Source: Streptomyces cathayae (GTDB taxonomy: Bacteria > Actinomycetota > Actinomycetes > Streptomycetales > Streptomycetaceae). Taken from it: a stretch of DNA of 64,000 bases. Location: positions 62,001 through 126,000 of the forward strand of contig NZ_CP121683.1 in assembly GCF_029760955.1 (NCBI RefSeq). The letters run 5' to 3'. Shown one piece after another: positions 5,165-40,125 of this stretch. The translations under genes and the position numbers were made by a program. Below the pieces are notes generated by a model. The model was not told where the DNA came from, did no database searches, and saw nothing but the letters and a program-made list of their open reading frames with translations. Positions within the stretch are counted from its first letter, which is position 1, and each line of letters opens with the position of its first letter.

Positions 5165-5180
5165 GACCACTCCTAATTCG

Positions 5181-5197
5181 TTCCGACCAGACGGTAT
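5181..5197. promoter_or_regulatory. Operator-like palindrome, site 1
   Basis: TTCCGACCAGACGGTAT, half-sites TTCCG and CGGTA with a 6-bp spacer. It lies in the 78-bp gap between the LLM operon (start 5164) and the end of the acyl-CoA dehydrogenase gene. It is one of five copies in the cluster. The inferred ligand is the TetR protein encoded at 24504-25136. Confidence 0.8.
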
Positions 5198-5242
5198 GTT
5201 AATGCGGGCGGGCTTGCACCCGCAAGGGTGCGAGCCGGGCCC

Positions 5243-6265
5243 TCAGGCCTGAGCCGTCGGCCTCCGGGCGGCGATGCGCAGTTCTCCGGCACGGCGGCGG
5301 TGCCACGAACCACGGCCCAGCAACGCGTCCAGGACCAGGGCGCGCCGCAGGTACAGGTGCGGGTCCGCCTCCACGGTGATGCCCATGCCGCCGTGGACCT
5401 GGATGCAGCGCTCCGCGGCGAAGACGGCGGCCTTCCCGGCGGCCGCCTTGGCGGCGTGCACCTGGATCCCGGCGTCCGGGCGGCCGTTGTCGACGGCCCA
5501 CGCGGCGTACAGCGCCAGATCCCAGGCCGCCTTCCGGGCCGTTGCCGCCTCGGCGAGCTGGAACGCGACCGCCTGGAACGAACCGATGACGCGGCCGAAC
5601 TGCTGCCGCGTCCTGGCGTAATCGGCGGCGAGGCCTATGGCGCCTTGGGCGACACCGCAGAGTTCGGCGGCGACGACCAGCGTGGCGCGCTGGGCGCCCG
5701 CACCCACCGGCGCGGCGCTCTCCGGCTCGCCCAGGGTCACGTCCGCCAGCGGCACCGACGGATCGAACGACTCGCGAGGGGTGATGCCGGCCGGGTCGGC
5801 GATCCAGACGCCCTCGGTACCCAGTGCCGCGATTCCGTCGGCGTGGTCGGCATACCGAACCAGCGTGCGGATGGGCCCTGCGCAGCCGGAGCGGTCCGCC
5901 CATCCCGGTGTTCCGGGCGCGTCGGCCGCGGGGGTGAGGATCCGGCGGCCCTCAAGCACGTCGTCGGGCAGAGGGCCGAGCGCGGTCGCCAACTGGACTG
6001 CGGCGGCGTGCGACGGGAAGCGGCTCGGCACGAGGTGCTCGCCGAGCACCTCGACGGCCACCAGCAGGTCGATGAGGCTCGAGCCGATGCCGCCCGCCGA
6101 CTCGGGGACGCCGAGGAGGCCGAAGTCCCGCAGCAGCGTGGTGTCGCACTCCGGCGCGCTCCACGGTCCGGCGAGCGCGTCACGCGCCCGCTTGCTCTCG
6201 CGCTGGGCGAGGGTTCGGACGGTCTTCTCGATGTCGAGCTGGTCGTGGGTGAAGGCTGCTCGCAT
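5243..6265 (-). CDS. Acyl-CoA dehydrogenase, small subunit type
   Basis: A 340-residue acyl-CoA dehydrogenase-fold flavoprotein, shorter than the usual 380 residues. The N-terminal helical domain contains LLRDFGLLGVPESAGGIG, and the C-terminal FAD-binding domain has YARTRQQFGRVIGSFQAV and ERCIQVHGGMGITVE. It follows a full-length acyl-CoA dehydrogenase gene with a 13-bp gap. Paired dehydrogenases of this kind often form alpha2beta2 enzymes on bulky acyl-CoA side chains in actinomycetes, such as the steroid side-chain FadE pairs; that is the inferred role here. The middle beta domain is reduced, consistent with a partner subunit supplying part of the active site. Confidence 0.88.
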   Translation of the reverse strand: MRAAFTHDQLDIEKTVRTLAQRESKRARDALAGPWSAPECDTTLLRDFGLLGVPESAGGIGSSLIDLLVAVEVLGEHLVPSRFPSHAAAVQLATALGPLPDDVLEGRRILTPAADAPGTPGWADRSGCAGPIRTLVRYADHADGIAALGTEGVWIADPAGITPRESFDPSVPLADVTLGEPESAAPVGAGAQRATLVVAAELCGVAQGAIGLAADYARTRQQFGRVIGSFQAVAFQLAEAATARKAAWDLALYAAWAVDNGRPDAGIQVHAAKAAAGKAAVFAAERCIQVHGGMGITVEADPHLYLRRALVLDALLGRGSWHRRRAGELRIAARRPTAQA

Positions 6266-6278
6266 GCGGCGACTCCGC

Positions 6279-7430
6279 TCAGCGTGAACGCGGCAGGCTC
6301 AGCACCCGCTCCGCGAGGATCGACTTCTGGACTTCTTCGGTGCCGCCCTCGATGGTGTGGGCACGGGCGCGGAGGTAGCGGCGCATCCGGGCGGCGGCGC
6401 CGTCGCCGTCGAGGAGGACCCCGCCGGCTTCGTCGAGCTGGACGGCGAGCCGGTTGGCGTTCTGGACGACACCGGCCCACAGGCTCTTCAGCGCGGAGGT
6501 CTCCGGGCCGGGGACGCCGCCGGCCTGGCTTTCGCCGAGCATGCGCATCGAGCCGATGCGCACCGCTTCGGCGTCGCACTGGAGGGCGCCGACGGTGTCG
6601 ATGAACGCGGTGCCGTCGGCGACGCCGCGCTCGACCGCGAGGTCGATCAGCCGATCGACGGCCTGACGTGCCCACACCCACAGGTTGAGCGCCATGCTGC
6701 CCCGCTCGAACGCGAGCGTGGTCAGGGCGACCTTCCAGCCGTTCCCGACACCGCCGAGGACGTCCTCGTCCGGGACGAATACGTCGTCGAGGAACATCTC
6801 GTTGAACTCGGTGTCGCCGTTGATCATGACCAGCGGTCTCACGGTGAACCTGTCCATCGGCGCCAGGAAGTAGGAGATGCCCTGGTGCTTGGGCGCTTCG
6901 GAGTCGGTCCGTGCCAGGAGCAGGCACTTCGAGGCGTTGTGGGCGTTCGACGTCCAGATCTTCGAGCCGTTGACGAGCCAGCCGCCGTCGACCCGGACCG
7001 CCGAGGTGCGCAGGCTCGCTAGGTCCGATCCGGAGCCCGGCTCACTGAATCCCTGGCACCAGTAGGTCTCGCCCGTGAGGATCCCGGGCAGGTGGCGGGC
7101 CTGCTGCGCGGCGGTGCCGTGCGCGACGATGGTCGGCCCGGCCAGCATCATGCCGACACCGTTCAGCGGGTACGGCGCCCCGCGGACCGCGGCCTCCTCG
7201 TTGAAGATCGCCTGAGCCAGCGAGTCCATGCCGCGGCCACCGTGCTCCACCGGCCAGGACAGTCCGGCCCAGTTCGCTGCGCACAACCGGTCCTGCCACA
7301 CGCGCGACCAGTGCTCGCGCTCCTCCTGCGAGAGGTCCTCCTGGTCGGGCACGTCCTCCAGTGCCTCGTCGAGCCAGCTGCCGACCTCGCGCCGGAACGC
7401 CAGATCGGCATCGCTGTCATCGAAGTCCAT
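6279..7430 (-). CDS. Acyl-CoA dehydrogenase
   Basis: A 383-residue acyl-CoA dehydrogenase that would introduce an alpha-beta double bond into an acyl-CoA, with FAD as cofactor. It has the N-terminal WAGLSWPVEHGGRGM, the flavin-contacting CQGFSEPGSGSDLASLRT, WLVNGSKIWTSNAHNA, and the C-terminal RARAHTIEGGTEEVQKSILAE. The frame is open further upstream, but ATG 7430 has GGGAGG at a good distance and gives the family's normal N-terminus. It overlaps the preceding acyl-CoA synthetase by 14 bp and lies just upstream of the smaller dehydrogenase, its probable partner. Confidence 0.92.
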   Translation of the reverse strand: MDFDDSDADLAFRREVGSWLDEALEDVPDQEDLSQEEREHWSRVWQDRLCAANWAGLSWPVEHGGRGMDSLAQAIFNEEAAVRGAPYPLNGVGMMLAGPTIVAHGTAAQQARHLPGILTGETYWCQGFSEPGSGSDLASLRTSAVRVDGGWLVNGSKIWTSNAHNASKCLLLARTDSEAPKHQGISYFLAPMDRFTVRPLVMINGDTEFNEMFLDDVFVPDEDVLGGVGNGWKVALTTLAFERGSMALNLWVWARQAVDRLIDLAVERGVADGTAFIDTVGALQCDAEAVRIGSMRMLGESQAGGVPGPETSALKSLWAGVVQNANRLAVQLDEAGGVLLDGDGAAARMRRYLRARAHTIEGGTEEVQKSILAERVLSLPRSR

Positions 7431-9003
7431 GTCCGCCTCCCACCATGTCGTCGGTCGCCGGGCCCGCGCCGGAGACGTCCTCGGCACCGGCGAGCCGGGT
7501 CTTGTACAGCTTTCCGTTGGGATCGCGCGGCAACGTCTCGTGCACGAAGTACGCCTTCGGCAGCTTCGGCTTCGCCAACCGCTCGGACAGGTAGGACCGC
7601 AGCGTCTCCACGGCCGTCGCCTCGTCGGGCGCGTCGTCGGTCAGCGCGATGTGGGCGACCGGGACCTCGCCGTACTCCTGGTCGGGCGTGCCGGTGACAC
7701 CTACGTCGGCGACCCACTCGTGCCCGATGAGGGCGTTCTCGATCTCGGCCGGGTACACGTTCACCCCGCCGACCAGGATGAGCTCGGAGACACGACCGGT
7801 GATGTACAGGAACCCGTCCTCGTCGACGTGGCCGACGTCCCAGACGGTCGTCAGGCCGTCGCGGCGCGACCCGTCGGTCTTGCGGGGATCCTTGTGGTAC
7901 TCCATCCGGTCGTCGCCCTGGCGCATGTAGATGATGCCGGTCTCGCCGGTGGGCACCTCGTTGCCCCGGGTGTCCAGGATGCGCAGGGTCGAGATCGACG
8001 CGGGCCGCCCCACGGTCCCGGGGTGGGCGAGCCATTCGTGCGGGCGCGCGATGGTGGTACCGACCTCCGTCGAGCCGTAGTACTCGTAGACGACCGGACC
8101 GAACCAGTCGAGGATTCGCTGCTTGATCTCGCGCGGGCACGGCGCGGCACCGTGGAGCACGTACTGCAGCGACGACATGTCGTGGCACTCGCGGACCGCC
8201 TCGGGCAGTTGCAGCAGCCGGAAGAAGTGGGTCGGGACCATGCTGGACCCGGTGATCCTGTGCTGCTCGACCCGCCTGAGGAAGCCCTCGGGGGTCCAGC
8301 CGTCCATCAGGACCAGGGTGCCGCCGGCATGCAGTGCGCCCATCGCGGGCGTGATGCTCGCGGAGTGGTACATCGGCGATGACACCAGCCAGGACCCGAA
8401 CGCCTCACGGGTCATCCCGAACTCCTTGAACAGCCACCTGTAGGCGAGCGCGCCGGTGTCGGCGTCGAGGCCGCTCAAGGGCCGTTTCACGCCCTTGGGG
8501 CGGCCGGTGGTGCCGGAGGTGTACATCATCAGCGACCCGGCCGGGGTGTCCTCCGGGTCAGTGGTCGCCATGCGGTCGGTCAGCTCCGAGAGCGAACGCG
8601 CGGCCGCCGCCCTGCCGTCGACGAACACGGGGAGGCCGAGCGGGTCAGCCGCGGTGGCCACGGTCTCCTCGACGCGGTCGGAGCAGACGACCACTCTGGC
8701 GTCGCAGTCCTCAAGGATGTAGGCGATCTCCGGAGCGGTGAGGTGGTAGTTGACCGTGACGAGGTACAGCCCGGACTGCATCGCTGCGAGATAGAGCGCG
8801 ACCATCCCCACGCTGTTGGCCATCACGCACGCCACCGTGTCGCCCTCGACGAGGCCGCACCGCTCGCGCAACCCGTGCGAGACGCGGTTCACCTCGGCGA
8901 ACAGCTCCCCGTAGGTAAACCTCTGGTCGTCGGCGGTGATGACCGCTTCCAGCTCCGGATGCGACGCGGCCCAGAGCCGGAAGCCCACCTGGTCCTCGCG
9001 CAT
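7417..9003 (-). CDS. AMP-dependent acyl-CoA synthetase
   Basis: A 528-residue ANL ligase. Motifs in order: MMYTSGTTGRPKGVKRPL (phosphate loop), YEYYGSTEVGTTIARP, ITGRVSELILVGGVNVYP (hinge) and the catalytic lysine in PRDPNGKLYKTRL. It is the first gene of the leftward operon 9003-5243, coupled to two acyl-CoA dehydrogenases, so its product is presumably the acyl-CoA they oxidise. Operator site 2 lies 19 bp upstream, in the gap shared with the divergent metallo-hydrolase gene. Confidence 0.92.
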   Translation of the reverse strand: MREDQVGFRLWAASHPELEAVITADDQRFTYGELFAEVNRVSHGLRERCGLVEGDTVACVMANSVGMVALYLAAMQSGLYLVTVNYHLTAPEIAYILEDCDARVVVCSDRVEETVATAADPLGLPVFVDGRAAAARSLSELTDRMATTDPEDTPAGSLMMYTSGTTGRPKGVKRPLSGLDADTGALAYRWLFKEFGMTREAFGSWLVSSPMYHSASITPAMGALHAGGTLVLMDGWTPEGFLRRVEQHRITGSSMVPTHFFRLLQLPEAVRECHDMSSLQYVLHGAAPCPREIKQRILDWFGPVVYEYYGSTEVGTTIARPHEWLAHPGTVGRPASISTLRILDTRGNEVPTGETGIIYMRQGDDRMEYHKDPRKTDGSRRDGLTTVWDVGHVDEDGFLYITGRVSELILVGGVNVYPAEIENALIGHEWVADVGVTGTPDQEYGEVPVAHIALTDDAPDEATAVETLRSYLSERLAKPKLPKAYFVHETLPRDPNGKLYKTRLAGAEDVSGAGPATDDMVGGGHGLR

Positions 9004-9021
9004 GCCACTCCTTGCATTTGA

Positions 9022-9038
9022 TTCCGACTGTTCGGTAT
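9022..9038. promoter_or_regulatory. Operator-like palindrome, site 2
   Basis: TTCCGACTGTTCGGTAT in the 51-bp divergent gap between the synthetase (start 9003, leftward) and the metallo-hydrolase (start 9055, rightward). A single site in so short a gap could control both promoters. Confidence 0.8.
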
Positions 9039-9054
9039 CTTCTTCGAAGAGTAG

Positions 9055-10041
9055 ATGGGATTACAAGCCATGTCCATACCGGTGAGCAAAGAGCACGCGG
9101 CCAGCTACCGAGCCCGCGAGGTGTCCGGCCCGACCCCGGTCGTCGACGGCGTCTGGTCGGTGCCGGTACCGCTTCACGGAAGCCCCCTGCATTCCGTCAT
9201 CGTCTATCTGATCGAGACACCCGAGGGTCCGGTCCTCATCGACGCCGGCTACGAGCATCCCACCTGCTGGGCGTCGTTCCAGGAGGCGCTGGAGCGGATC
9301 GGGCGGAGCCCCAAGTCCATTCGGGCGGTGCTCCTCACCCACAACCACCCCGACCACGTCGGATTCGCCGACCGGGTCCGCGACGTCTCCGGCGCACAGA
9401 TCGTGATGCACCAGGACGACGACTTCGCCTTCCTGCACCGGGGGCGCGGCCGGTTCCTGACGCAGCTGCACACAGCGCTGGTCATGACGGGCGCCCCCGA
9501 CGATGTCGTCGAGTCGATGTATGCCGAAGCCGGCAAGGTGGCGAAGCACTCCGAGAGCCTTGACCTCGATGTCGCCCTCACTGAGGACATCGACTTTAGG
9601 TTCGGCGACGTGACCGTGCGAGCCATCCACGCCCCCGGGCACACCTACGGGCACACGATCTTCGTCTCGCAGGGGCTGGTGTTCACCGGCGACACGATGA
9701 TGCCCGAGGGACCCACGCAATTGGCGATTCCGAGCCTGCCGGAGGACAACCCGGCCGCGGACCTGTTCGGCACCCTGGACCGGATCCGGGACCTGGGGGC
9801 GGAGATCGCCTGCCCTGCGCATCAGTTCGCCTACCGCGATGTCGCCGAGCGGGCGATGGAGCTCAAGGCGTTCCACCAGCGTGAGGTCGAGAAGGTCCGC
9901 GGGCTGCTCGCGGACCATGGGACGGCGTGGGAGATCGCACCGCATCTGACATGGCCGAAGCCGTGGGACGAGCTCGGGCCGGGTACCCGCCGGTTCGCGC
10001 TCATCCACACCCTGGCACTCCTGCACGGCGCGAAGGTCTGA
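9055..10041 (+). CDS. Metallo-beta-lactamase-fold hydrolase
   Basis: A 328-residue MBL-fold protein. The metal-binding motif THNHPDHVG is near residue 102, followed by HAPGHTYGHTIF, VFTGDTMM and a late histidine in CPAHQF: the full ligand set for a binuclear zinc or iron centre. The C-terminal helical extension resembles lactonase/thioesterase-like members of the family. Candidate roles are ring lactone hydrolysis or thioester cleavage in the pathway. It is a single-gene unit transcribed away from the synthetase operon and shares operator site 2. ATG 9055 and ATG 9070 are both possible starts; neither has a strong ribosome site. Confidence 0.88.
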   Translation: MGLQAMSIPVSKEHAASYRAREVSGPTPVVDGVWSVPVPLHGSPLHSVIVYLIETPEGPVLIDAGYEHPTCWASFQEALERIGRSPKSIRAVLLTHNHPDHVGFADRVRDVSGAQIVMHQDDDFAFLHRGRGRFLTQLHTALVMTGAPDDVVESMYAEAGKVAKHSESLDLDVALTEDIDFRFGDVTVRAIHAPGHTYGHTIFVSQGLVFTGDTMMPEGPTQLAIPSLPEDNPAADLFGTLDRIRDLGAEIACPAHQFAYRDVAERAMELKAFHQREVEKVRGLLADHGTAWEIAPHLTWPKPWDELGPGTRRFALIHTLALLHGAKV

Positions 10042-10134
10042 ACATCGGGCACCACGGGACGTCGATCGTGGCAGCACCCCGCTCGCCGACCGCCTGACCA
10101 GCTGCGCGCGGGATGGCATCACCAGCTCCTGCCG

Positions 10135-11682
10135 TCACTCGCCACGCCGATAGACCCAGTCGGGCGTCAGCGACGGCCGCAGTTCGCGCAGTTCCCGCTT
10201 GAGGATCTTGCCGGACGGGTTCGTCGGGAGCTTCTCGACGAGGTAGACCTCCTTGGGCACCTTGAACTTTCCGAGACGTTCGCGGGCGTGCGCGATGAGG
10301 TCCGCTGCCTGAAGGCCGGGCCGGCCGACGGCGAACGCAACCGGCACTTCCTGCCACGTGGGGTGGGGTGCCCCGACGACGGAGGCCGACAGGACCAGTG
10401 GATGGTCGGCGAGGACGTTCTCGATCTCGGCACTGGACATGTTCTCGCCGCCGCTGCGGATCATGTCCTTGAGCCGGTCGCGGATGTAGAGGTATCCGTC
10501 CTCGTCGAGGCAGCCGACGTCGCCCGTGTGGAACCAGCCGTCGCGGAAGGCGTGCGCGGTCGCTTTCGGGTCGTCGAGATAGCCGGGGCTGACCTTCGGA
10601 CCGCGTGCGATGATCTCGCCGTCCTCCCCGACCCCGACGTCGTTGCCGTCGGGGTCGACGACACGGACCTCGACCCACGGGACGGGAATACCGACGGAGC
10701 CCTGCTTGGACTCCATGTGGGCTTCGTCGAGGTAGGTGAGTCCGCTGCATGTTTCGGTGAGGCCGTAGCCCTCGATGAGTCTGGCGTTCGGGAACAGCTC
10801 GCGTGCGACCTTGAAGAGCGCCGAGGTCACCTGGGAGAAGATCAGCCACCGGACCATGCTGAGGTCCGCTTCCGCTCCTTCGGCTCTGCGGCGGATCATG
10901 TCGAGCATCGTGGCGGCCACGACCATTCCGGTGATGCCTTCGGCCTCGACCGCGGCGAGGATGTCGGCCGGATCGAAGCGGCGCTGAAGGACCATGCAAC
11001 CGCCGACGTGCCAGATCGCATAGCCGGGGAGGTCGGTGCCGCCGACGTGGTAGAGCGGCGCGAAGTTCAGGATCCGGTCGGTCGGACGGAGCCCGAGCTC
11101 GACGATCTGGGCGTGCATGTTGGCGTTCACGTTGCCGTGGGTGAGCAGGACGCCCTTGGGGAGGCTGGTGGTTCCCGACGTGTAGACGATCCGCTGCAGC
11201 CCGGATCCGTCGAGCACGGCATCGGCCACCTTCGCTCCGCGATGCGCGTCGATGAGGCTCGCGACGTCGGTCCAGGAGTCGTCGATGTACTCGAGGGAGT
11301 AGCGGCGCAGATGCGGGAGTTCTGCGGCCGCTCGTACCGTGAGGTCGGCATACTCGGGAACGGTTGCGACCGCCTCCACACCCGCGTGCCGCAGCAGGTG
11401 CGCTACTTCCCCCGGGGTGAGCCGGTAGTTCAGTGGAACGAACACCGCGCCGAGCCTGCTCAGCGCAAGGGACAGGATGAGGAACTCGGGGACGTTGTTG
11501 GCCACGATCGCGACGCGGCTCTCGCGCCGCACCCCGTCTGCGGCCAGACCGGCGGCGAGCGCGTTCACGTCGGCATCCAAGTCGCGGTAGGTCCAGCGCC
11601 GTCCCTCGAACACGAGGGCGTCCCTGTCCGCGAAGCGGATGGCGTTCAGCGCGAGCGTCCGTGCGAGGTTGGCAGTGCTCAC
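10135..11682 (-). CDS. AMP-dependent acyl-CoA synthetase
   Basis: A 515-residue long-chain/medium-chain type acyl-CoA ligase with IVYTSGTTSLPKGVLLTHGN, EGYGLTETCSG, RLKDMIRSGGENMSSAEIE and the lysine motif NPSGKILKREL. The GTG start at 11682 overlaps the stop of the upstream ligase by GTGA, which supports it over longer in-frame starts. It is the last gene of the 12-kb leftward operon that begins with the substrate-binding protein at 22199. It and its upstream neighbour are tandem paralogues. Confidence 0.92.
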   Translation of the reverse strand: MSTANLARTLALNAIRFADRDALVFEGRRWTYRDLDADVNALAAGLAADGVRRESRVAIVANNVPEFLILSLALSRLGAVFVPLNYRLTPGEVAHLLRHAGVEAVATVPEYADLTVRAAAELPHLRRYSLEYIDDSWTDVASLIDAHRGAKVADAVLDGSGLQRIVYTSGTTSLPKGVLLTHGNVNANMHAQIVELGLRPTDRILNFAPLYHVGGTDLPGYAIWHVGGCMVLQRRFDPADILAAVEAEGITGMVVAATMLDMIRRRAEGAEADLSMVRWLIFSQVTSALFKVARELFPNARLIEGYGLTETCSGLTYLDEAHMESKQGSVGIPVPWVEVRVVDPDGNDVGVGEDGEIIARGPKVSPGYLDDPKATAHAFRDGWFHTGDVGCLDEDGYLYIRDRLKDMIRSGGENMSSAEIENVLADHPLVLSASVVGAPHPTWQEVPVAFAVGRPGLQAADLIAHARERLGKFKVPKEVYLVEKLPTNPSGKILKRELRELRPSLTPDWVYRRGE

Positions 11683-13202
11683 TTCCCGGCCTCCTGTTCC
11701 CGAAGCCGCTTCTTCAGGACCTTCCCGGAATCGTTGCGCGGCAGCGTGTCGACCAGGGCGATGTACTTGGGCACCTTGTACCTCGCCAGGTTGTCCAGGC
11801 AATGCTGCCGGATGTCACCGGCGGTCGCGGTGGCGGAGCCGCGGAGGATGATGAACGCCTTCGGGACCTCGTCCCACTTCTCGTCGGGGACCCCGATGAC
11901 GGCGACTTCGGCGACGTCGGGGTGTTGGGCGATGACGCGTTCGATCTCGGCGCCGGCGACGTTCTCGCCGCCGGACTTGATGAGGTCGGTGCGCCGGTCG
12001 ACGAACCACAAGTAACCGTCGGCGTCCACGCGACCGACGTCACCGGTGAGGAACCATCCGTCGCGGCGGGTGCGCCGGTTGGCTTCGTCATCGTTCCAGT
12101 AGCCGGGCGAGACCTTGTCGCCGCGGACGATGATCTCGCCTTCCTCTCCCGCGGGGACCTCGCGGAAGTCCTCGTCGACGATGCGGATGTGAACGCCGGG
12201 GAAGGGGACTCCGAGGGCGCCCACCTTGGACTCCTCGTGCGCGGCGTCCATGTAGCAGACGCCGTTGCAGAGTTCGGTCATACCGAACGTGTCGACCAAC
12301 CGCACGTGGGGAAGCAGGCTCTTGACCCGGCGCCGGACGCTCGGGGCGACGCCGGCGAAGAGCAGATAGCGGAGCCTGCTCAGATCCGGCGCGGGGTCCA
12401 GGCCCAGCACGCCGAACAGGATCTGCGCGGCGAGGACCATCCCAGTGGCTCGTTCCTCTGCCGCGATCCGGGCGATGTCCTCGGGCTTGAACGTTGGGGT
12501 GAGCACCATGGTGGCACCGGCCACGAACGTGGCGAGACCGGGCGCCTCCAAGCCGCTGACGTGGAAGAGCGGGGCCGTGATGAGGATGCGGTCGTTCTGG
12601 GTCAACTCGAGTTCGAGCACCTGAGCGCGGTGGTTGGCAGCCAGGTTGCCGTAGGTGTGGACGACGCCCTTGGGGTGTGCGGTGGTACCGGAGGTGTAGA
12701 GAAGCCGGTGCATGTCGTCGGCGTCCTTCTCCGCATCCGCAATCCGGACACCCGGGGGCTGCGCGGCGAGGAGCTGATCCATGCGGTCGCTTCCGGGAAC
12801 CGCGTCCTGCCCGTTCGCCACCAGCGCCCGAAGCCCTGTCGCGGCCTTCAGCGCCGCGGCGTCTTCACGGAAGTCGTCGTCGTACAGCAGGCAGGTGATG
12901 CCAGCCTGCTTGATGATGTAGGCCTGTTCGTTGACGTGCAACCGCCAGTTGAGCGGTACGGAGACAGCCCCGATGCGGGCGAGTGCGAGCAGCTCGATGA
13001 CGTACCTGGCGGTGTTCCGACCGAGCACACCGACGAGATCGGTCGCACCGACACCCGCACTGAGCAGGGCGCCCGCGTACCTGTCGACATCGGCGTCGAG
13101 TTCGGCGTAGGTCCACCGCCGGTCCCCGTCGACCAGGGCTTCACGGTCCGCGCGGCGAATCGCCTGGCCGCGGAGGATCTCGGCGAAGTTGTTAGTGGCC
13201 AC
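11679..13202 (-). CDS. AMP-dependent acyl-CoA synthetase
   Basis: A 507-residue ANL ligase with LLYTSGTTAHPKGVVHTYGN, DTFGMTELCNGVCYM, DRRTDLIKSGGENVAGAE and NDSGKVLKKRL. GTG 13202 was chosen because a GGGGGG tract lies 6-7 nt upstream and the resulting 11-bp overlap with the VOC gene is typical of this operon. Its sequence resembles the ligase downstream more than those at 1531 and 7417, which suggests a local duplication. The substrate cannot be deduced. Confidence 0.92.
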   Translation of the reverse strand: MATNNFAEILRGQAIRRADREALVDGDRRWTYAELDADVDRYAGALLSAGVGATDLVGVLGRNTARYVIELLALARIGAVSVPLNWRLHVNEQAYIIKQAGITCLLYDDDFREDAAALKAATGLRALVANGQDAVPGSDRMDQLLAAQPPGVRIADAEKDADDMHRLLYTSGTTAHPKGVVHTYGNLAANHRAQVLELELTQNDRILITAPLFHVSGLEAPGLATFVAGATMVLTPTFKPEDIARIAAEERATGMVLAAQILFGVLGLDPAPDLSRLRYLLFAGVAPSVRRRVKSLLPHVRLVDTFGMTELCNGVCYMDAAHEESKVGALGVPFPGVHIRIVDEDFREVPAGEEGEIIVRGDKVSPGYWNDDEANRRTRRDGWFLTGDVGRVDADGYLWFVDRRTDLIKSGGENVAGAEIERVIAQHPDVAEVAVIGVPDEKWDEVPKAFIILRGSATATAGDIRQHCLDNLARYKVPKYIALVDTLPRNDSGKVLKKRLREQEAGK

Positions 13203-13692: not shown

Positions 13693-13719
13693 GGTGCTTC
13701 GCTTTCCTGGCATTCGGAG

Positions 13720-17209: not shown

Positions 17210-17227
17210 AGCCGGCCAGTCTCCCTT

Positions 17228-18909: not shown

Positions 18910-18916
18910 GGAAGCC

Positions 18917-19840
18917 TCACCTCACCCTCGGGTCGACGATGGCGTGGAGGACGTCGACGAGCAGGTTCAGGAAAACGAAGACCAGCGCACCGAAGACGAC
19001 GATGGCTTGTACGAGCGGGAAGTCGCGGAACTGGACCGCCTGGAGCGCCAGCTGGCCGAGACCGGGCCACGAGTAGACGTACTCGACCGCGACCGCGCCG
19101 GAAAGCAGGGTTCCGGTCTGCAGGACGACAATGGTGAGGATGGGCATCATCGCGTTCTTGAACACGTGTCGCCATACGACCCGGGCCCGGCTGAGGCCTC
19201 GGGCGCGCGCGGAGTCGATGAACGGCTCCGCCAGGGATTCACTCATGGACGCTCTTGTCAGTCGTGCGATCTGAGCCATCGGATACAGCGACATCGTGAT
19301 CGCGGGCAGGATGAGGTGCCTCAGCGATCCGGACTGGCCCGCCGGCAGCCAGCCCAGCTTCACGGCGAAGAGGACCACGAGCATCATGCCCATCCAGAAG
19401 ACCGGAACGGACTGTCCGAGGAGGGCCAGGATCGAGGCTGCCCGGTCCCACCAGGTTCCCTCACGCGTGGCCGCGAGAACACCCAGCAGCACGCCGATCA
19501 GGACCGCGAGCGCCATACCCCCGCCGACCAGTTGGAGGGTGTAGGGGAGGCGGTCGAGAATGAGACTGGTGTTGGACTGGTAGAACTTCAGCGACTGTCC
19601 GAAATCACCGGTGAGGGTCCCCTTGAGGTAGTCGAAGTACTGGACGAGGACCGGCCGGTCGAGACCGAGTTCGTGCCGCAGGGCCTCGTGCTGTGCAGGC
19701 GGCGCCATGGGGCCGAGGATCGAGGAGGTGGGGTCACCGGACAGGCGCCCCAGTGCGAACGCCAGGCTCAGGGCGATGAGCAGTGACGCGAGCAGTGCGA
19801 AGAGTCGGCTTCCGACGCGCCGCAAGGTCGTGGTTCTCAT
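18917..19840 (-). CDS. ABC transporter permease, DppB-like
   Basis: A 307-residue permease. It starts with a membrane span after RRVGSRLFALLASLLIALSL, then a large external loop containing LGLDRPVLVQYFDYLKGTL and FGQSLKF (both typical of DppB/OppB), then further spans. The coupling loop is ARARGLSRARVVWRHVFKNA. ATG 19840 overlaps the upstream ATPase stop by ATGA and is preferred to the ATG five codons earlier. It would form the membrane pore with the DppC-like protein downstream. Confidence 0.92.
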   Translation of the reverse strand: MRTTTLRRVGSRLFALLASLLIALSLAFALGRLSGDPTSSILGPMAPPAQHEALRHELGLDRPVLVQYFDYLKGTLTGDFGQSLKFYQSNTSLILDRLPYTLQLVGGGMALAVLIGVLLGVLAATREGTWWDRAASILALLGQSVPVFWMGMMLVVLFAVKLGWLPAGQSGSLRHLILPAITMSLYPMAQIARLTRASMSESLAEPFIDSARARGLSRARVVWRHVFKNAMMPILTIVVLQTGTLLSGAVAVEYVYSWPGLGQLALQAVQFRDFPLVQAIVVFGALVFVFLNLLVDVLHAIVDPRVR

Positions 19841-20673
19841 CGGCGTGCTCTCCATCGGGCCCCCGGCATGGCTGCCAGGAGTTCGCGCGTGTAGTCGTTC
19901 TGGGGATCCTTGAACACGGTTTTGCAGGGTCCGGACTCGACGACACGTCCGCGGTACATCACATGGACGGCGTCGCAGACCGAACTGACGACTGCGAGGT
20001 CGTGGCTGATCAGGAGCAGCGCCGAACCGGTAGTGGCTCGGGCCTCCTTGAGGAGCTTGAGAACGTCGGCCTGGACGGACACGTCGAGGCCGGACGTGGG
20101 TTCGTCGGCCACGATGAGCCGCGGCCGCATGAGGAGCGCCCGGGCGATGCAGACCCGTTGGGCCTGCCCGCCGCTGAGCTGGTGCGGGTAGCGGTCGAGG
20201 ATCTCCTCACCGAGGCGAACCTGTTCGAGGAGATCCTCGTCGCTGGTCCACGAGGTCCGTTCGCGCTGGAGAGCGCGGAGCTCGTGGAGACCGGACCGAA
20301 CGGACTGGCGCGGGTCGAGCGAGCCGTGCGGGTCCTGGAACACGACCTGCACCTCCGGGCGAAGCGCCCGCAGTTCCTTGCGGCCGATTTTCCCCAGCGA
20401 ACGGCCGAGGAGCTGGATGTCGCCTTCGCCTCGCGGACCGAGACCGGTTGCGGCCATGGCCAGCGTCGTCTTTCCCGAGCCCGACTCGCCGACGATCGCG
20501 ACGCTTTCGCCTGCGTGGACGCACAGTGACACGTCGTCGACCGCGCGGAACACCTCACCGGTGCTCCGGTTACGGTGCTCGACGACCAGGTTGCTCACCT
20601 TGAGCACCGGGGAGGATGCAGCTGCGAGGCGGGGAGCATCGGCCGGCAGCTCCGTTTCCATCCGTTCGGACAT
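19837..20673 (-). CDS. ABC transporter ATP-binding protein, DppF-like
   Basis: A 278-residue ATPase with Walker A GESGSGKTT (62-70), Q-loop VVFQDPHGSLDPR, signature LSGGQAQRVCIARAL, Walker B LIVADEPTSGLD and LLISHDLAV. The FQDP-x-x-SLDPR string is typical of the DppF/OppF half of the ATPase pair. The gene lies 2 bp from the substrate-binding protein gene and overlaps the first permease, so the five transporter genes form one unit. Its first 20 residues precede the conserved fold. Confidence 0.92.
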   Translation of the reverse strand: MSERMETELPADAPRLAAASSPVLKVSNLVVEHRNRSTGEVFRAVDDVSLCVHAGESVAIVGESGSGKTTLAMAATGLGPRGEGDIQLLGRSLGKIGRKELRALRPEVQVVFQDPHGSLDPRQSVRSGLHELRALQRERTSWTSDEDLLEQVRLGEEILDRYPHQLSGGQAQRVCIARALLMRPRLIVADEPTSGLDVSVQADVLKLLKEARATTGSALLLISHDLAVVSSVCDAVHVMYRGRVVESGPCKTVFKDPQNDYTRELLAAMPGARWRARR

Positions 20674-20675
20674 CG

Positions 20676-22199
20676 TCAGAGAGCCGTCTTCGTGAAGTCG
20701 ACGGTGTTCAGCGGGCCGAACTCCACGCCCTTGACGTTCGGGAGGGTCGCGTAGTTGAACACCTGTCGGTACAGGGGCACGTAGCAGTGCCTGTCCACGA
20801 CTCCGCTCGTGTTGAGCTCGTCGTAGATCGGGGCGGCCGCCTCGGCGTTGTCCTGCTGGAGAGCCTTCGCGATGAGCTTGTCCGTCTTCGGGTCGGGGCA
20901 GTTGCCCGTGATCGACGTGGTCTTCATGAAGCCACTGGCGAAATAGTCCGGGATCGGGACGTTCGGGACACCGGCGAAGATCGAGACGCCCGGAACCTCC
21001 CGTCCGATGATGCGCTTGGTCAGAGTGCCGTAGTCCAGCGGCACGTACTTGACCTTGAAGCCCACCTTCTCAAGGTTGCCACCGACCGCTTCGGAGACTT
21101 CCTTGATGTTGGTGTACTGCCCGGCCGGGTAGCTGATCTGGACGGTCGGGGACGCGCCGCCGACGAGTTCCTTCGCCTTGGCCGGGTCGGGCGTCACGCT
21201 GCGGCTCGGTTCTGTGCCGGGCTTGACGTTGAGCAGACCGGAGTCGGCGACCGCCTTGCCGTCGAAGATGCCGCTCACGATGGCGTCACGATCGATCGCC
21301 AGCGCTGCGGCTTCACGCAGCTTCGGGTCCTTGAAGGGCGCCTTCGTCGAGTCGATGAACGCGATGATTTTCATGGCCGTGGTGGTGCTGACGACGTCGA
21401 GACCGGCCTTCTTGGCCTCGTCGGCCTTCGTCGGGGGGAGGTCGAACGCGACGTCGACGCTCTTGCTCTGGACGAGAGCGAGTCGTTGTGAAGCCTCGGT
21501 CGCCCACGAGAAGGTGACGCCGTCGTTGCTCGGCTTGGCGCCCCAGTAGTCCGGGTTCTTCTTCACCGACATGTCACGCCCGGCGTGCGAGCCCGCCCAC
21601 AGGTAGGGGCCGGTGCCGACCGGAGCGGCCGCGAAGCCCTCCGAGCCCTTCTCCTTGTAGTACTTCGGCGGAACCAGGTAGACCGTGGTCAGCAGCTCCG
21701 GCAGGTCGTACTGCGGGGTCTTCGTCTTCACTACGACGGTGGTGGCGTCGGGGGCCTCAGCCGACACGATGTTGGTGAAGTACGTCTTGAGCTGCGAGGC
21801 CTCACTGTCGCGAGTCAGTAGAATGGTGTTGGCCACGGCGGCGGCGTCCGCCTTCTCGCCGTTGGTGAAGCTGATGCCCGGCCGCACCTTGAAGGTCCAG
21901 TTGGTCTGGTCGGTCCGGGTCCAGCTTGTGACGAGGCCGCTGTCCACCATGTTGAGGTCGGCATCAAGCTTGATGAGCGGCTCGAGCATGGTCGCCCAGA
22001 CGACCTGCCCGGACCGGGGGCCCACTATCGGGTCGAGCGTCGCGGGCTGAGCCGCGAGCAGCGCCCGGACGACGTCGGGTCCAGAGGCCCCGCTCTTGCC
22101 GGAGTCGGAGTTTCCACACGCGGCGAGGCCTGAAGTCGCGATGGCGAGGGCCAGTGCGGGGGCCATCATCTGGCGGGGGCGCAAGCGGTTCTTGTTCAT
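20676..22199 (-). CDS. ABC transporter substrate-binding lipoprotein (SBP family 5)
   Basis: A 507-residue exported solute-binding protein. The N-terminus has a positively charged stretch (MNKNRLRPRQ), a hydrophobic core and a lipobox LAAC with the lipidated cysteine at residue 28. Family-5 features follow: QPATLDPIVGPRSG, MLEPLIKLDADLNM, WTFKVRPGISFTNGEK and GTGPYLW. ATG 22199 has GGAG 7 nt upstream. It is the first gene of the 12-kb leftward operon and lies 64 bp from operator site 3. Family 5 binds peptides but also sugars, nickel and other ligands, so the ligand may be the compound degraded by the cluster. Confidence 0.93.
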   Translation of the reverse strand: MNKNRLRPRQMMAPALALAIATSGLAACGNSDSGKSGASGPDVVRALLAAQPATLDPIVGPRSGQVVWATMLEPLIKLDADLNMVDSGLVTSWTRTDQTNWTFKVRPGISFTNGEKADAAAVANTILLTRDSEASQLKTYFTNIVSAEAPDATTVVVKTKTPQYDLPELLTTVYLVPPKYYKEKGSEGFAAAPVGTGPYLWAGSHAGRDMSVKKNPDYWGAKPSNDGVTFSWATEASQRLALVQSKSVDVAFDLPPTKADEAKKAGLDVVSTTTAMKIIAFIDSTKAPFKDPKLREAAALAIDRDAIVSGIFDGKAVADSGLLNVKPGTEPSRSVTPDPAKAKELVGGASPTVQISYPAGQYTNIKEVSEAVGGNLEKVGFKVKYVPLDYGTLTKRIIGREVPGVSIFAGVPNVPIPDYFASGFMKTTSITGNCPDPKTDKLIAKALQQDNAEAAAPIYDELNTSGVVDRHCYVPLYRQVFNYATLPNVKGVEFGPLNTVDFTKTAL

Positions 22200-22262
22200 G
22201 TTCGTTCTCCACAGCGCTGGGATAGCCATGTCACCGAACTGCCTGTGACGGTCGCCACAAAG

Positions 22263-22279
22263 TACCGACCGGGCGGTAT
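22263..22279. promoter_or_regulatory. Operator-like palindrome, site 3
   Basis: TACCGACCGGGCGGTAT, the most symmetric of the five copies, in the divergent gap 64 bp upstream of the substrate-binding protein gene. It is placed to control the 22199-10135 operon. Confidence 0.85.
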
Positions 22280-22308
22280 TAAGTCAACGGGCTTCGCGGT
22301 GCAATTAA

Positions 22309-22325
22309 TACCGACTGGTCTGTAT
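22309..22325. promoter_or_regulatory. Operator-like palindrome, site 4
   Basis: TACCGACTGGTCTGTAT, 46 bp from site 3 and only 10 bp before the proposed start of the rightward crotonase gene. It overlaps an upstream alternative ATG at 22324. A mismatch (CTGTA for CGGTA) lies in the right half-site. Confidence 0.8.
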
Positions 22326-22335
22326 GATGCAAGGC

Positions 22336-23070
22336 ATGGCTATCACTCTGACCCGCGAGCGAAACGGCTGCGTCGCCCACATCAGATATGACAACGCGGC
22401 ACGTGGCAATAGCTTCGACGGGGAGCTCCTCGGCGAGCTGGTGGACACGCTCGAAGCGGCGGCGCTCGATCCGATGTGTTCGGTCATCCGTCTGGACATG
22501 GCGGGCAGGCACTTCTGCGGGGGCTGGGACACGACCTCGTTCGGCGACCTGTCGGCCTCGACGGCCGAGTCGGTCGCCGCCGCGCTGCGAAGCAGTGACG
22601 AGATGCTCGGCAGGATTCGTCGGCTTCCGGTACCGGTGGTGGCGGGCGTCCGCGGCCAGGTCATCGGGTTCGGCGCCGGCTTGCTGAGCGCCGTGCACCT
22701 TCCGGTGGCGGCCGCGGACACCCGCTTGTCGCTGCCCGAGGTACGGTTCGGTTTCGCGCCCGCGGGTGTGGGGCACACCATCGCGCAGGCGCTGCCGCGG
22801 GCTCAGGCATACGCGCTCCTCACCGGGGCGACGACTGCGAGCGGCTCCCAGCTTCTGGCCTGGGGGCTGGTCACTCGCGTGGTTCCGGAGACCGAACTCG
22901 AAACCGCCGTCCACGAGTTGGTCGAGACGCTGGCAGCGGTGCCCGGCCAGGCTCTCCGGGCCGTGGTCAAGGTCGTCGAGTCGAGTTTGGCGACCGGCTC
23001 GGCCGACGAGTCGTACCTGGCCTCGGCTCGCACGATCGTTGCTGGCGTGCCCGCTGGTGGTGTGCGATGA
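22336..23070 (+). CDS. Enoyl-CoA hydratase/isomerase (crotonase) family
   Basis: A 244-residue crotonase. It opens AITLTRERNGCVAHIRYDN and has the first oxyanion loop at HFCGGWDTTSF and the second at GQVIGFGAGLLSAVHLPVAA. The acidic residue of LPEVRFGFAPAGVG lies where hydratases carry a catalytic Glu. ATG 22336 is preferred because the earlier ATG codons (22324, 22327) overlap or abut operator site 4. No good ribosome site is present, so the transcript may be nearly leaderless. It heads a three-gene rightward operon and ends overlapping the VOC gene by ATGA. Confidence 0.9.
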   Translation: MAITLTRERNGCVAHIRYDNAARGNSFDGELLGELVDTLEAAALDPMCSVIRLDMAGRHFCGGWDTTSFGDLSASTAESVAAALRSSDEMLGRIRRLPVPVVAGVRGQVIGFGAGLLSAVHLPVAAADTRLSLPEVRFGFAPAGVGHTIAQALPRAQAYALLTGATTASGSQLLAWGLVTRVVPETELETAVHELVETLAAVPGQALRAVVKVVESSLATGSADESYLASARTIVAGVPAGGVR

Positions 23071-23882
23071 GCGCGCCGTTCCAGGCGGGCGAGGCTGTCT
23101 GGGTCGAGCTGTGCACGACGGACCCGGACGCGGCTACGGCATTCTACTCGTCCCTCCTGGGCTGGTCCGTCCGTGAGGAGCGCATCGGCAGCGCCGTCTA
23201 CCGGATGTTCAGCCTGAACGGCCGGGACGTGGCGGGCATTTCGGATGCCGCAACGCTCCATGGCGGCCGACCGCGTGGATGGATCACCTACTTCGCGGTC
23301 GATGACATCGACCGCGCCGTGCACCAGGCGGTGGCGCTGGGCGGTGAATTGGTTTCGGTGCCGCGGTATCTTCCTGCCGCCGGCACCGGGGCCACGATCG
23401 TGGATCCCTTCGGCGCGGTGTTCGGGCTCTACCAGGGTGAGACGCGAGCTGGAGTCGAAGCGCTGAATTCGGTCGGCGCGCTGTGCTGGAACGAGCTCAA
23501 CACCGGGGAGCCCGCGAAGTCGGTGTCGTACTACCAGTCGCTGTTCCACTTCGGAACGGTCCAGCGGGAGTCGGCGACTTCTCAGCTGTACACGGTGCTG
23601 ATGCTCGGTGATGTTCCCGTTGCCGGGGTGCTTGAGCTCGACAACGAATGGCCGAACCGTCTGCCGTCGAAGTGGATCACCTACTTCGGCGTTGCGTCGC
23701 TGAGCGAGGCGCTCAGCCGCGTCGTCGACCTCGGCGGCACACCGGGGGTCGGTCCGGTGGACAGCCCCCACGGCCGCCTGCAACTGGTGCGTGACCCGGT
23801 GGGTCACGCGGTGTGCCTGATCGAACTGAAGGACGGACTGCGTCCGGCCAACTTCCCTACGGACCCGGTGGTGACCACATGA
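23067..23882 (+). CDS. Two-module VOC (glyoxalase-fold) protein
   Basis: A 271-residue protein with two VOC modules in tandem: residues ~8-125 (VWVELCTTDPDAATAFYSSL, ending DPFGAVFGLYQ) and ~135-260 (LCWNELNTGEPAKSVSYYQS, ending DPVGHAVCLIELK). The WVEL/DP-x-G pattern matches the actinobacterial family often named after 27-kDa antigen CFP30B. The metal set appears reduced, so a binding or lyase role is possible. It overlaps both neighbours by ATGA and is therefore tightly co-translated with the crotonase and the flavin reductase. Confidence 0.87.
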   Translation: MSAPFQAGEAVWVELCTTDPDAATAFYSSLLGWSVREERIGSAVYRMFSLNGRDVAGISDAATLHGGRPRGWITYFAVDDIDRAVHQAVALGGELVSVPRYLPAAGTGATIVDPFGAVFGLYQGETRAGVEALNSVGALCWNELNTGEPAKSVSYYQSLFHFGTVQRESATSQLYTVLMLGDVPVAGVLELDNEWPNRLPSKWITYFGVASLSEALSRVVDLGGTPGVGPVDSPHGRLQLVRDPVGHAVCLIELKDGLRPANFPTDPVVTT

Positions 23883-24394
23883 TGACCGAGCCCCTACTCG
23901 ATTCCGCTGATTTCCGCCAGGTGTGCGGACACTTCCCGACCGGCGTGACCGCCGTCACCGCTGTCACCGACGAGGGCGGCTACGCGGCGCTGACCGTGAA
24001 CTCGTTCACATCGGTTTCCCTGGAGCCGGCGAAGGTACTGTTCTGCCTGGCGACGGCGTCGTCGAGCTTCGCGGTCCTCAAGAACGCGCGGAGGATCGCC
24101 ATCCACATCCTGGCCCAGGACCAGGAGGACATCGCGCGCCGGTGCGCGACCTCGGGGCTGACGGGCGCGGACAAGCTGGAGGGTGTGGCGTGGACGGCCG
24201 GGCCGGACGGTGTCCCGCTGATTCCGGGAACGTCGGCGATTCTGACGGGCACGACCGATGAACTGATCACCAGCGGCGACCACGTCATCATCCTGATCGA
24301 CGTCGATCATGTGCATCTGAAGCCGTCGCCGGTGCCGGCGCTGTCGTTCTACCGGGGTCGGTTCTCCTCGCCCACTGCCGTCGCCGCCGACTGA
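23879..24394 (+). CDS. Flavin reductase-like domain protein (FMN-binding split barrel)
   Basis: A 171-residue protein of the HpaC-type flavin reductase family. It has FRQVCGHFPTGVTAVTAVTD, the flavin-contacting LTVNSFTSVSLEPAKVLFCL, SSFAVLKNARRIAIHIL and late HVIILIDVDHV. These proteins pass reduced FMN to a partner monooxygenase. Three LLM oxidoreductases under the same operator motif (548, 3078 and 4079) are the obvious partners. The start ATG overlaps the VOC stop, and a strong terminator follows the stop. Confidence 0.9.
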   Translation: MMTEPLLDSADFRQVCGHFPTGVTAVTAVTDEGGYAALTVNSFTSVSLEPAKVLFCLATASSSFAVLKNARRIAIHILAQDQEDIARRCATSGLTGADKLEGVAWTAGPDGVPLIPGTSAILTGTTDELITSGDHVIILIDVDHVHLKPSPVPALSFYRGRFSSPTAVAAD

Positions 24395-24397
24395 CCG

Positions 24398-24427
24398 ACA
24401 GGGCCTCCCGGGACCGGGAGGCCCTGT
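24398..24427. terminator. Bidirectional hairpin terminator
   Basis: A perfect 14-bp inverted repeat (ACAGGGCCTCCCGG / CCGGGAGGCCCTGT) around 2 central bases, immediately after the flavin reductase stop and between convergent operons. No T-tract follows, as is usual in high-GC actinomycetes. Confidence 0.85.
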
Positions 24428-24503
24428 GCGCGTCCGATACGGCCGAGCCAGAGCGGCCCTGACGGGTGGTGGGACGCCTCAGTGACTCGGAAGTCGACTC
24501 GTT

Positions 24504-25136
24504 TCAGACGACCAGGCCGTCGAGGACGAGTGTGCAGAACTGGTCCGTGACATCGTCGACGCTCATCGTTCCATCGGGGTTGAACCACTGAAACGTCGAG
24601 GCGCACATCCCGATGATGCCGAAGGCGACGATGCGGCTGGTCACGTTGGAGCGGAATTTCCCGGCGTCGATGCCGTGTTGGACGATTCCGCAGATGAGCG
24701 CTTCGAGTTCGTCGCGTTTCTCGGTGACGGCTCGGAGGTGCTCACCGGTGAGGTGCCGGCGCTCCTGGTAGAAGATCGCGACGTGGGCGCGGTAGGACGC
24801 GACACCACTGAGGCTGAGCCGGATGAGCGCCCGTAGCTGGTCGGCGATGTCAGAGTGCTGTTCGACGATCGCGCGGGCGGCTTTGATCTGGGTGTCGAGG
24901 TACTCGTTCTGGATCTGCCACAGTACATCTTCTTTGCTCTGGAAGTGGTGGTAGAACGCACCCTTGGTGAGGTTGGCGCCGTCGACGATCTGCTGGAGCG
25001 TGGTTCGGTCGAATCCTTCCTGTTCGAACAGGTGAAGTGAGCTGTCGACGAGTGCACGGCGGGTACCCTGCGGGTCGTAGCCCTGGGGCCAACGACGCCT
25101 CCTCGACTTGGCCGTGGTTTCTGCGGGTTCTGTCAT
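24504..25136 (-). CDS. TetR-family transcriptional regulator
   Basis: A 210-residue TetR repressor. The N-terminal DNA-binding domain covers residues ~23-70 with TTLQQIVDGANLTKGAFYHH as helix-turn-helix, and an all-helical ligand domain follows. A basic SRRRRW stretch precedes the domain. ATG 25136 gives the natural N-terminus, although the frame is open further. It lies downstream of a MaoC hydratase gene, and operator site 5 sits before that operon, implying autoregulation. It is the only regulator in the catabolic cluster and is therefore the likely reader of all five operator copies; an acyl-CoA intermediate is a plausible inducer. Confidence 0.93.
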   Translation of the reverse strand: MTEPAETTAKSRRRRWPQGYDPQGTRRALVDSSLHLFEQEGFDRTTLQQIVDGANLTKGAFYHHFQSKEDVLWQIQNEYLDTQIKAARAIVEQHSDIADQLRALIRLSLSGVASYRAHVAIFYQERRHLTGEHLRAVTEKRDELEALICGIVQHGIDAGKFRSNVTSRIVAFGIIGMCASTFQWFNPDGTMSVDDVTDQFCTLVLDGLVV

Positions 25137-25156
25137 CGTGTTCCTCGGGAGGGTGC

Positions 25157-25645
25157 CTAGTCGTAGTAGCGGAACAGCATTTCCGCGATGCAGCATGGCT
25201 GGGACTCGGACGCGAACTCTATGACCACCGAGGCCTTGGCCTGTACGCCTTCGGCAGGGTTGTCGTCGGTTGCGGGGATCGGTTCGGCGGACACCAGCGT
25301 CGCAGTGCCCTGGATTTCGGTGCCGGGCGGGAGCGGGCGGATGAACCGGACCCGGTCGAGTCCGTAGTTGACGCCCATGGAGAACTCCTTGACCTCGAGG
25401 ATGTCCTGGAGGAGCCTCGGGACGAGGGCAAGGGTGAAGAACCCGTGGACGACGGTGGTGCCGAAGGGTCCGGCCTTGGCCCGCTCCACGTCGACGTGGA
25501 TCCACTGGTGGTCCTTGGTGATGTCGGCGAACTGGTTCACCTCTGCCTGGGTGACGACCTGGACTTCACTGGCCCCGAGATCCTTGCCGACGAGGTCGAG
25601 GAGCTGCTTCGGGCCGGCGATGGTGGTGCGGCGGGGAGGTCTCAT
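25157..25645 (-). CDS. MaoC-like (R)-specific enoyl-CoA hydratase
   Basis: A 162-residue single hot-dog-fold protein. The hydratase-2 motif is visible: VNQFADITKDHQWIHVD carries the catalytic Asp and His, and the region continues into GPFGTTVVHGFFTLAL. It would hydrate trans-2-enoyl-CoA to the 3-hydroxy form, matching the SDR at 13720. The gene precedes the TetR gene by 20 bp in one operon. A strong operator lies 81 bp upstream and a weaker look-alike is immediately before the start. Confidence 0.92.
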   Translation of the reverse strand: MRPPRRTTIAGPKQLLDLVGKDLGASEVQVVTQAEVNQFADITKDHQWIHVDVERAKAGPFGTTVVHGFFTLALVPRLLQDILEVKEFSMGVNYGLDRVRFIRPLPPGTEIQGTATLVSAEPIPATDDNPAEGVQAKASVVIEFASESQPCCIAEMLFRYYD

Positions 25646-25725
25646 CTTCTCTGCTCCGTTCCGACTGGGTCGTCATGAACCAGACCGGGTCACGACGTGC
25701 ACGGGAAGGGCCTTCCTCTTCTTCA

Positions 25726-25742
25726 TACCGACTAGATGGTAT
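25726..25742. promoter_or_regulatory. Operator-like palindrome, site 5
   Basis: TACCGACTAGATGGTAT upstream of the MaoC-TetR operon. The right half-site is TGGTA rather than CGGTA. It marks the right edge of the regulon; the IS relics start within 80 bp. Confidence 0.8.
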
Positions 25743-25820
25743 CTCTTTTGCCGCAAGCTCAACCACCGGTTCAAGAGGTCCGGCGCGGCGGGACCGGGAG
25801 CCCGAGGAGTCGTCCGCACC

Positions 25821-26091: not shown

Positions 26092-26121
26092 TTCTCTCCG
26101 GAACGCCCGGCTCTGCCGGAA

Positions 26122-27364: not shown

Positions 27365-27489
27365 TCAGTATGTGTGGCGTGAAGGGCGGTCGCCTACGCG
27401 GCGAAAGGCTCTGCAGGGCTTCAGCCGAACGATCGTCCCTGCAGGCGATAGATGAGGCCCGGGACACTGTCCCCTCCACCACGTTCCTT

Positions 27490-29482: not shown

Positions 29483-29485
29483 TTT

Positions 29486-30787: not shown

Positions 30788-30793
30788 CCCACC

Positions 30794-40094: not shown

Positions 40095-40125
40095 TCAGCC
40101 CCTCCCGAGCAACGGGGGAACCTCA

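Follow-up and report, generated by a model that had tools for sequence, protein, structure and literature searches.

An operator palindrome shared by the promoters of a catabolic gene cluster in Streptomyces cathayae points to an autoregulated TetR_C_24 regulon

As described in PMC2770484, PaaR of Burkholderia cenocepacia is a TetR-type repressor of a multi-operon catabolic pathway (phenylacetate), its gene is co-transcribed with another gene, and its operator, ACCGACCGGTCGGT, consists of inverted repeats lying between the putative -10 and -35 boxes. For PfmR (TTHB023) of Thermus thermophilus, PMC7022988 gives the consensus TACCGACCGNTNGGTN. Here we analyzed a 64,000-nucleotide stretch of Streptomyces cathayae DNA (contig NZ_CP121683.1, positions 62,001 to 126,000; hereafter the window), in which a catabolic gene cluster carries one 18-bp palindrome, ATWCCGACYRGTCGGWAT (half-sites ATWCCGACY and RGTCGGWAT), at five places. 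Its core, ACCGACYRGTCGGT, is of the PaaR/PfmR-type operator class. We propose that the TetR_C_24 protein encoded at 24504-25136 is very probably an autoregulated repressor, which would control six transcription units of the cluster through this palindrome and be released by a CoA thioester intermediate. The positions of the sites, their statistical excess, their conservation across genomes and their promoter-like geometry carry this proposal. The operator class is already in print with PaaR and PfmR, and our literature search for the cluster found no paper on the pathway controlled here.

The sequence-only reading of this locus had described a 17-bp motif, TWCCG-N6-CGGTAT, at five places. One palindrome does occur at all five when they are read in the window, but the literal string has exact matches at three of them (5181, 9022 and 22263, versus 0.04 matches expected from shuffles), whereas 22309 (CTGTAT) and 25726 (ATGGTAT) each depart from it by one mismatch. 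Because it misses these two, we dropped the literal string as working motif; its six N positions are not free within the palindrome, which is better described as 18 bp long. Operator 1 (GTTCCGACCAGACGGTAT, 5180..5197) precedes the leftward unit that begins with LLM3, a luciferase-like monooxygenase (LLM) gene. Operator 2 (ATTCCGACTGTTCGGTAT, 9021..9038) occupies the divergent promoter region common to FadD4 (left) and a metallo-beta-lactamase-fold (MBL) hydrolase (right). Operator 3 (GTACCGACCGGGCGGTAT, 22262..22279) belongs to the leftward substrate-binding protein (SBP) unit, where it sits within the 17-bp spacer of the promoter TTGACT-N17-TACTTT; operator 4 (ATACCGACTGGTCTGTAT, 22308..22325) stands before the rightward enoyl-CoA hydratase (ECH) unit, where it overlaps a TATGAT -10-like box; and operator 5 (ATACCGACTAGATGGTAT, 25725..25742) precedes the MaoC-TetR operon, a position that would allow autoregulation. 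As had been claimed, these five gaps are the upstream gaps of the six units, namely the leftward ones from 5164, 9003, 22199 and 25645 and the rightward ones from 9055 (or from an alternative ATG at 9070) and 22336, the distance from site to start codon being 10-79 bp (with the start at 9055 for the MBL unit). Neither reading the window nor a matrix scan found an operator in the two convergent gaps, 10041-10135 and 24394-24504. A half-site-like stretch near 25661 was left out of the operator count.

The site set exceeds chance by a wide margin in the window. With a matrix built from 27 sites near the TetR gene of the seven relatives described below, every window site being excluded, the top five scores in the 64 kb are exactly the five sites (28.9, 26.1, 23.6, 23.2 and 19.8 bits), followed by a sixth at 9.8 bits; a first-order Markov null predicts 0.0064 matches of at least 19.7 bits per 64 kb (2 in 20 Mb simulated). 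In the whole genome (7,614,103 bases in two contigs, C1 and C2), TWCCGACYRGTCGGWA with up to two mismatches occurs at 32 places, versus 2 for the reversed control, and these comprise the five window sites, four copies of window sites at the ends of C1 and 23 others.

Comparison with other genomes provides further evidence. A scan of named genomes for the TetR protein yielded seven close relatives (62-72% identity to the window TetR): Nocardioides marmoriginsengisoli, Actinomadura sp. 7K507, A. barringtoniae, Actinomadura sp. CNU-125, N. alcanivorans, Microbacterium sp. RU33B and N. daejeonensis. The gene order of the cluster is the same in all seven; an insertion separates MBL from FadD_b in the three Nocardioides (about 10 kb in N. 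marmoriginsengisoli), and in five relatives PermB is not listed separately because a filter discarded matches overlapping ABC2. A matrix made from the window sites only, run at a threshold of at least 15 bits on 322,650 bases of these seven relatives, returned 42 sites, of which 35 fill the five equivalent gaps in every genome (lowest score 17.8 bits) and seven lie elsewhere. In an eighth genome (G403; TetR 54% identical), the cluster is present and each of the five gaps is occupied, MaoC being preceded by two sites; this cluster is rearranged, the TetR gene standing at the opposite side of MaoC and separated from it by an acyl-CoA dehydrogenase gene, and a weaker site (13.4 bits) occurs about 90 bp before the TetR match. 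The five equivalent gaps are thus filled in all eight other cluster-bearing genomes, that is at 40 of 40 positions, which do not represent 40 independent events because the genomes are related by descent. By eye, the operators are kept while the flanking bases differ among genomes. The TetR gene lies within a MaoC-TetR operon behind one operator in 7/7 close relatives, and, taken as sequence comparison, these data strongly support one regulon with a putatively autoregulated TetR, as the sequence-only reading had predicted.

Concerning the seven sites found elsewhere, three (N. marmoriginsengisoli 48783, 7K507 38757 and A. barringtoniae 33154) directly precede a leftward nitroreductase-family gene beyond MaoC (Pfam assignment for the 7K507 protein only), and a fourth, CNU-125 35509, occupies the matching place as judged by position. 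The others are 7K507 38877, before a ligase gene; N. marmoriginsengisoli 41338, a second site within the SBP-ECH gap; and Microbacterium 5782. The nitroreductase-family promoter with its operator (loci L143, L155 and L154) looks like an additional regulon promoter; the window lacks it, an IS240-type transposase open reading frame (ORF) beginning at this place.

The promoter geometry was examined in nine genomes, the window included, with boxes called by eye. At the SBP promoter, TTGAC and TAnnTT flank a 17-bp spacer that contains the operator in 9/9 genomes. At the ECH promoter, the end of the operator overlaps TATGAT in seven genomes and TATTAT or TATGCT in the other two; on the MBL side of the 9022 gap, the window sequence is TTGCAT-N18-TATCTT; and no clear -35/-10 layout was recognized by eye at the LLM3, FadD4 and MaoC promoters. 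The operator lies between -35 and -10 at the SBP promoter, with a similar arrangement at ECH and MBL, and this position is, as far as these boxes indicate, that of a blocking repressor. We propose the following mechanism. First, the TetR protein would bind the palindrome over the promoters of the six units, as a dimer or a pair of dimers. Second, the bound protein would block RNA polymerase at the best-defined promoters, since the operator fills their -35/-10 spacer, and it would regulate itself, since one site precedes its own operon. Third, the substrate would enter the cell, probably via the SBP-ABC transporter, and be activated by the CoA ligases, after which a CoA thioester intermediate (probably an acyl-CoA) would release TetR and turn all units on.

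The TetR protein (210 aa, minus strand) passes the Pfam models TetR_N (53.1 bits, cut-off 24) and TetR_C_24 (PF17932; 104.9 bits, cut-off 26.4), and its AlphaFold2 model (mean pLDDT 86.3) is all-helical, as expected of TetR. It is the sole regulator that Pfam found among the 24 ORFs scanned between 548 and 25645, in agreement with the earlier claim that the cluster encodes no other. Distant homologues also point to this operator class. In a set of 44 Bacillaceae loci that came from the scan of named genomes described above (L050-L092 and L102, assigned by genus name; 884,343 bases), where a TetR homologue of about 27-35% identity occurs in a different gene setting, the core CCRACYRGTCGG was found within 250 bp after the TetR match in 43/44 loci, with one further copy in all these bases; these loci likewise share descent. 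The outer bases of this site differ (GACCAAC...GTCGGTC), and the resulting GACCAACYRGTCGGTC-type palindrome is probably a conserved operator, to judge from its placement after the Bacillaceae TetR genes. In L060, the one Bacillaceae locus whose next gene was translated, the gene after the palindrome resembles an acyl-CoA dehydrogenase. Our literature search on operator variants found no paper for the Bacillaceae palindrome.

The phmmer matches of the cluster TetR include 3vpr (E 1.7e-18), which we take to be PfmR, and KstR2 (E 6e-21, residues 26-208 aligned), which in mycobacteria represses a CoA-dependent catabolic regulon, that of steroid ring catabolism. Despite this relationship in sequence, the cluster operator is unlike AnCAAGnnCTTGnT, presumably the KstR2 operator, and the cluster dehydrogenases fall far below the cut-offs for IpdE2 (92.7 bits versus 450) and PimC/PimD, so that membership of the cluster TetR in KstR2 appears unlikely. 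When compared with the operators of related TetR proteins, as had been suggested, the cluster palindrome is of the same class as PaaR ACCGACCGGTCGGT and PfmR TACCGACCGNTNGGTN. The likeness to PaaR concerns the repression of a multi-operon catabolic pathway, the operator class and a regulator gene that shares its operon with another gene (PMC2770484). In contrast to the PaaR regulon, no epoxidase family (PaaABCDE) occurs among the cluster ORFs scanned, and MaoC and ECH score far below the PaaZ and oxepin-CoA hydrolase model cut-offs; we rejected the identification of the cluster TetR as PaaR on regulon content. Unlike PfmR, which has few scattered targets in Thermus, the cluster TetR faces a contiguous cluster with luciferase-like monooxygenases. 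By analogy, we file it as a TetR_C_24 regulator that would work like PaaR and PfmR.

Besides the shared descent of the relatives, several findings weigh against a single regulator reading its own private sites. First, the genome-wide scan gave a mixed answer: the pattern is far more frequent than its control, and a profile built without the 9022-type sites ranked 22309, 25726, 5181 and their copies first, followed by C1:6340182, C1:4485320 and 22263, but the E-values are weak even for the best window sites (0.03-0.5), 9022 is absent at E<=10 among the 150 scored of 5313 first-look candidates, and several outside matches are nearly as good. Second, scoring of 22 of the 23 non-window pattern places (those on C1) with the relatives-only matrix gave 23.6 bits for C1:6340182 (ATGCCGACCGGTCGGTAT; 24.2 bits with the window matrix), the only outside place to reach the middle of the window range, 19.8 bits for C1:4485320, and 16.5-19.7 bits for four more places, three of them inside called ORFs; six of the 22 are intergenic according to a rough ORF caller that is sometimes wrong about the strand. 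Third, the whole genomes of the seven relatives hold TWCCGACYRGTCGGWA with up to two mismatches at 129 places versus 71 for the reversed control, and A. barringtoniae alone at 20 versus 27; 39 of the 129 fall at or near the cluster (Microbacterium 5782 included), and it is this clustering that stands out. Fourth, two loci with a TetR 41% identical to that of the window (L048 and L049) lack the cluster, and both carry AAACCGACCGGTCGGTGT about 6.5 kb away; L049 has in addition a weaker one, which precedes the TetR match by about 60 bp. Fifth, sites of this operator class also lie no more than about 2.5 kb from two other TetR_C_24 genes of the genome, at C1:6337530 and C2:55003.

The fifth finding underlies the strongest alternative, namely that the cluster sites, or part of them, are read by one of these two proteins, either in place of the cluster TetR or together with it. 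Nine TetR_C_24 matches occur in the genome, two of them being the cluster TetR and its C1 copy, and the proteins of C1:6337530 and C2:55003 have the same Pfam C-terminal domain. Their nearby sites are C1:6340182 and a 14.0-bit site near C1:6336064 for the former, and for the latter C2:52617 (ATACCGACCGGTCAGCAT; 17.1 bits) and C2:56462 (16.5 bits), which is not among the 23 pattern places. Against this alternative, 8/8 relatives show linkage of this TetR gene to the cluster. Among 200 sampled host-family genomes, only the host itself has the TetR, so that the sites were most likely brought in along with the cluster. We consider a takeover or sharing of the sites improbable, and the autoregulated TetR encoded in the cluster remains our preferred reader of them. 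Cross-talk between this TetR and the other TetR_C_24 regulators is possible, because two such genes have similar sites nearby. The earlier description of the regulon as self-contained has to be qualified on two counts: the first unit continues left of the window, and for at least two further TetR_C_24 regulators of this genome similar sites are found no more than about 2.5 kb from the gene. The gene at C2:55003 adjoins phosphotransferase and acyl-CoA dehydrogenase genes (Pfam; L026 10580-14500, corresponding to C2:52.6-56.5 kb). By eye, C1:6337530 (C1:6.336-6.340 Mb) apparently has the same layout and looks paralogous.

It is very doubtful that the TetR binds the sites and works mainly as an activator, as some members of the family do. 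The operators overlap promoter-like boxes or fall between them, at 10-79 bp from the start codons, as described for the repressor PaaR (PMC2770484). That the palindromes have another role (terminators, repeats or mobile-element ends) and occupy the gaps by coincidence is hardly credible: an IS240-type transposase ORF does begin inside the 25726 site, but the two convergent gaps are empty, the sites overlap promoter-like boxes, and no transposase ORF stands beside the equivalent MaoC site in N. marmoriginsengisoli, Actinomadura sp. 7K507 and A. barringtoniae among the ORFs listed there.

Further places were considered as members of the regulon. We rejected C1:463, 509, 3915 and 7463788, which are copies of window sites in a long contig-end repeat, and C1:661205 and C1:4314298 as separate sites, the match lying inside one repeated ORF. 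C1:4485320 (L121), 61 bp before a chromosomal luciferase-like monooxygenase gene, is possibly an outlying member.

The six units encode the following proteins. Unit A (548..5164, minus strand) comprises LLM3, LLM2, an acyl-CoA ligase and LLM1 by domain search; it extends beyond the left edge of the window, at least as far as an ECH-like gene and LLM4 (C2:60536), giving four luciferase-like monooxygenases in the cluster, one of them left of the window, and perhaps, after a 583-bp gap, through an F420-dependent NADP oxidoreductase-like gene and an SDR gene to C2:58142. Unit B (5243..9003, minus strand; domain search) encodes a FadD4-like ligase and two acyl-CoA dehydrogenases, and unit C (9055..10041, plus strand; domain search) the MBL-fold hydrolase. 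Unit D (10135..22199, minus strand) encodes an SBP_bac_5 substrate-binding protein, a peptide/nickel-type ABC transporter (two ATPases, two permeases), an HMG-CoA synthase-like/zf-ChsH2 protein, a thiolase, an SDR, a VOC protein and two acyl-CoA ligases. Unit E, on the plus strand, consists of an ECH-family protein (22336..23070; Pfam), a VOC/glyoxalase-fold protein (23067..23882; Pfam) and a flavin reductase (23813..24394; domain search), possibly the supplier of FMNH2 to the luciferase-like monooxygenases. The last unit begins with a MaoC-like dehydratase (25157..25645, minus strand; Pfam), followed by the TetR gene. This content suggests a CoA-dependent breakdown pathway with luciferase-like (FMN or F420) monooxygenases, the flavin reductase, a possible MBL-fold lactonase and beta-oxidation-type enzymes. 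Our guess is that it might serve the breakdown of a cyclic or branched acid via Baeyer-Villiger-like oxidation and CoA steps; the domain content of the scanned cluster ORFs did not pin down the substrate. The operators mark which genes share one pathway (24 ORFs in the window and more leftward), and thereby offer a bounded unit in which to look for the substrate of an actinobacterial degradation route that is still undescribed. With its fixed operator set and probable CoA-thioester ligand, the TetR could also be used as a biosensor.

The cluster TetR was detected in 1/200 sampled genomes of the host family (at 1e-30) and in 2/396 genomes of a phylum sample (at 1e-40), the host being included in both counts. 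This rarity and the IS240-type transposase ORF that borders the cluster on its right (25736..26911, plus strand; it starts inside operator 5) suggest that the cluster is an acquired island. More tentatively, the cluster might be a mobile, self-regulated catabolic regulon for an unassigned compound class, with four luciferase-like (F420 or FMN) monooxygenases, a ring-opening/lactonase step and an HMG-CoA synthase-like/thiolase pair, common to Nocardioides, Actinomadura, Microbacterium and others. It would have been transferred into a Streptomyces-like chromosome arm, and there its TetR and the two resident TetR_C_24 regulators could read each other's operators. These two residents of the same operator class make the genome a natural test case for cross-talk between regulators once genes have been transferred.

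The genome has a GC content of 69%. Window positions 21791..64000 recur at the left terminus of C1, whose right terminus bears an inverted copy that starts from 24971; the copies are 99.6-99.96% identical to the window and, outside it, 96.5-98.4% near the inner end of the repeat. The repeat measures about 65.8 kb in C1 (C1:1-65792) and ends where C2 ends; probably the chromosome is linear and this is its terminal inverted repeat, of which C2 would hold the outer portion. In the left-hand C1 copy, the TetR gene (C1:2692-3325) is split into two pieces in different frames, probably owing to a contig-end sequencing error. Finally, the starts of ORFs at 38.9-43.3 kb, 55.9-57.0 kb and 62.4-62.8 kb of the window resemble, by eye, transposases or integrases, which is consistent with a chromosome-arm setting.

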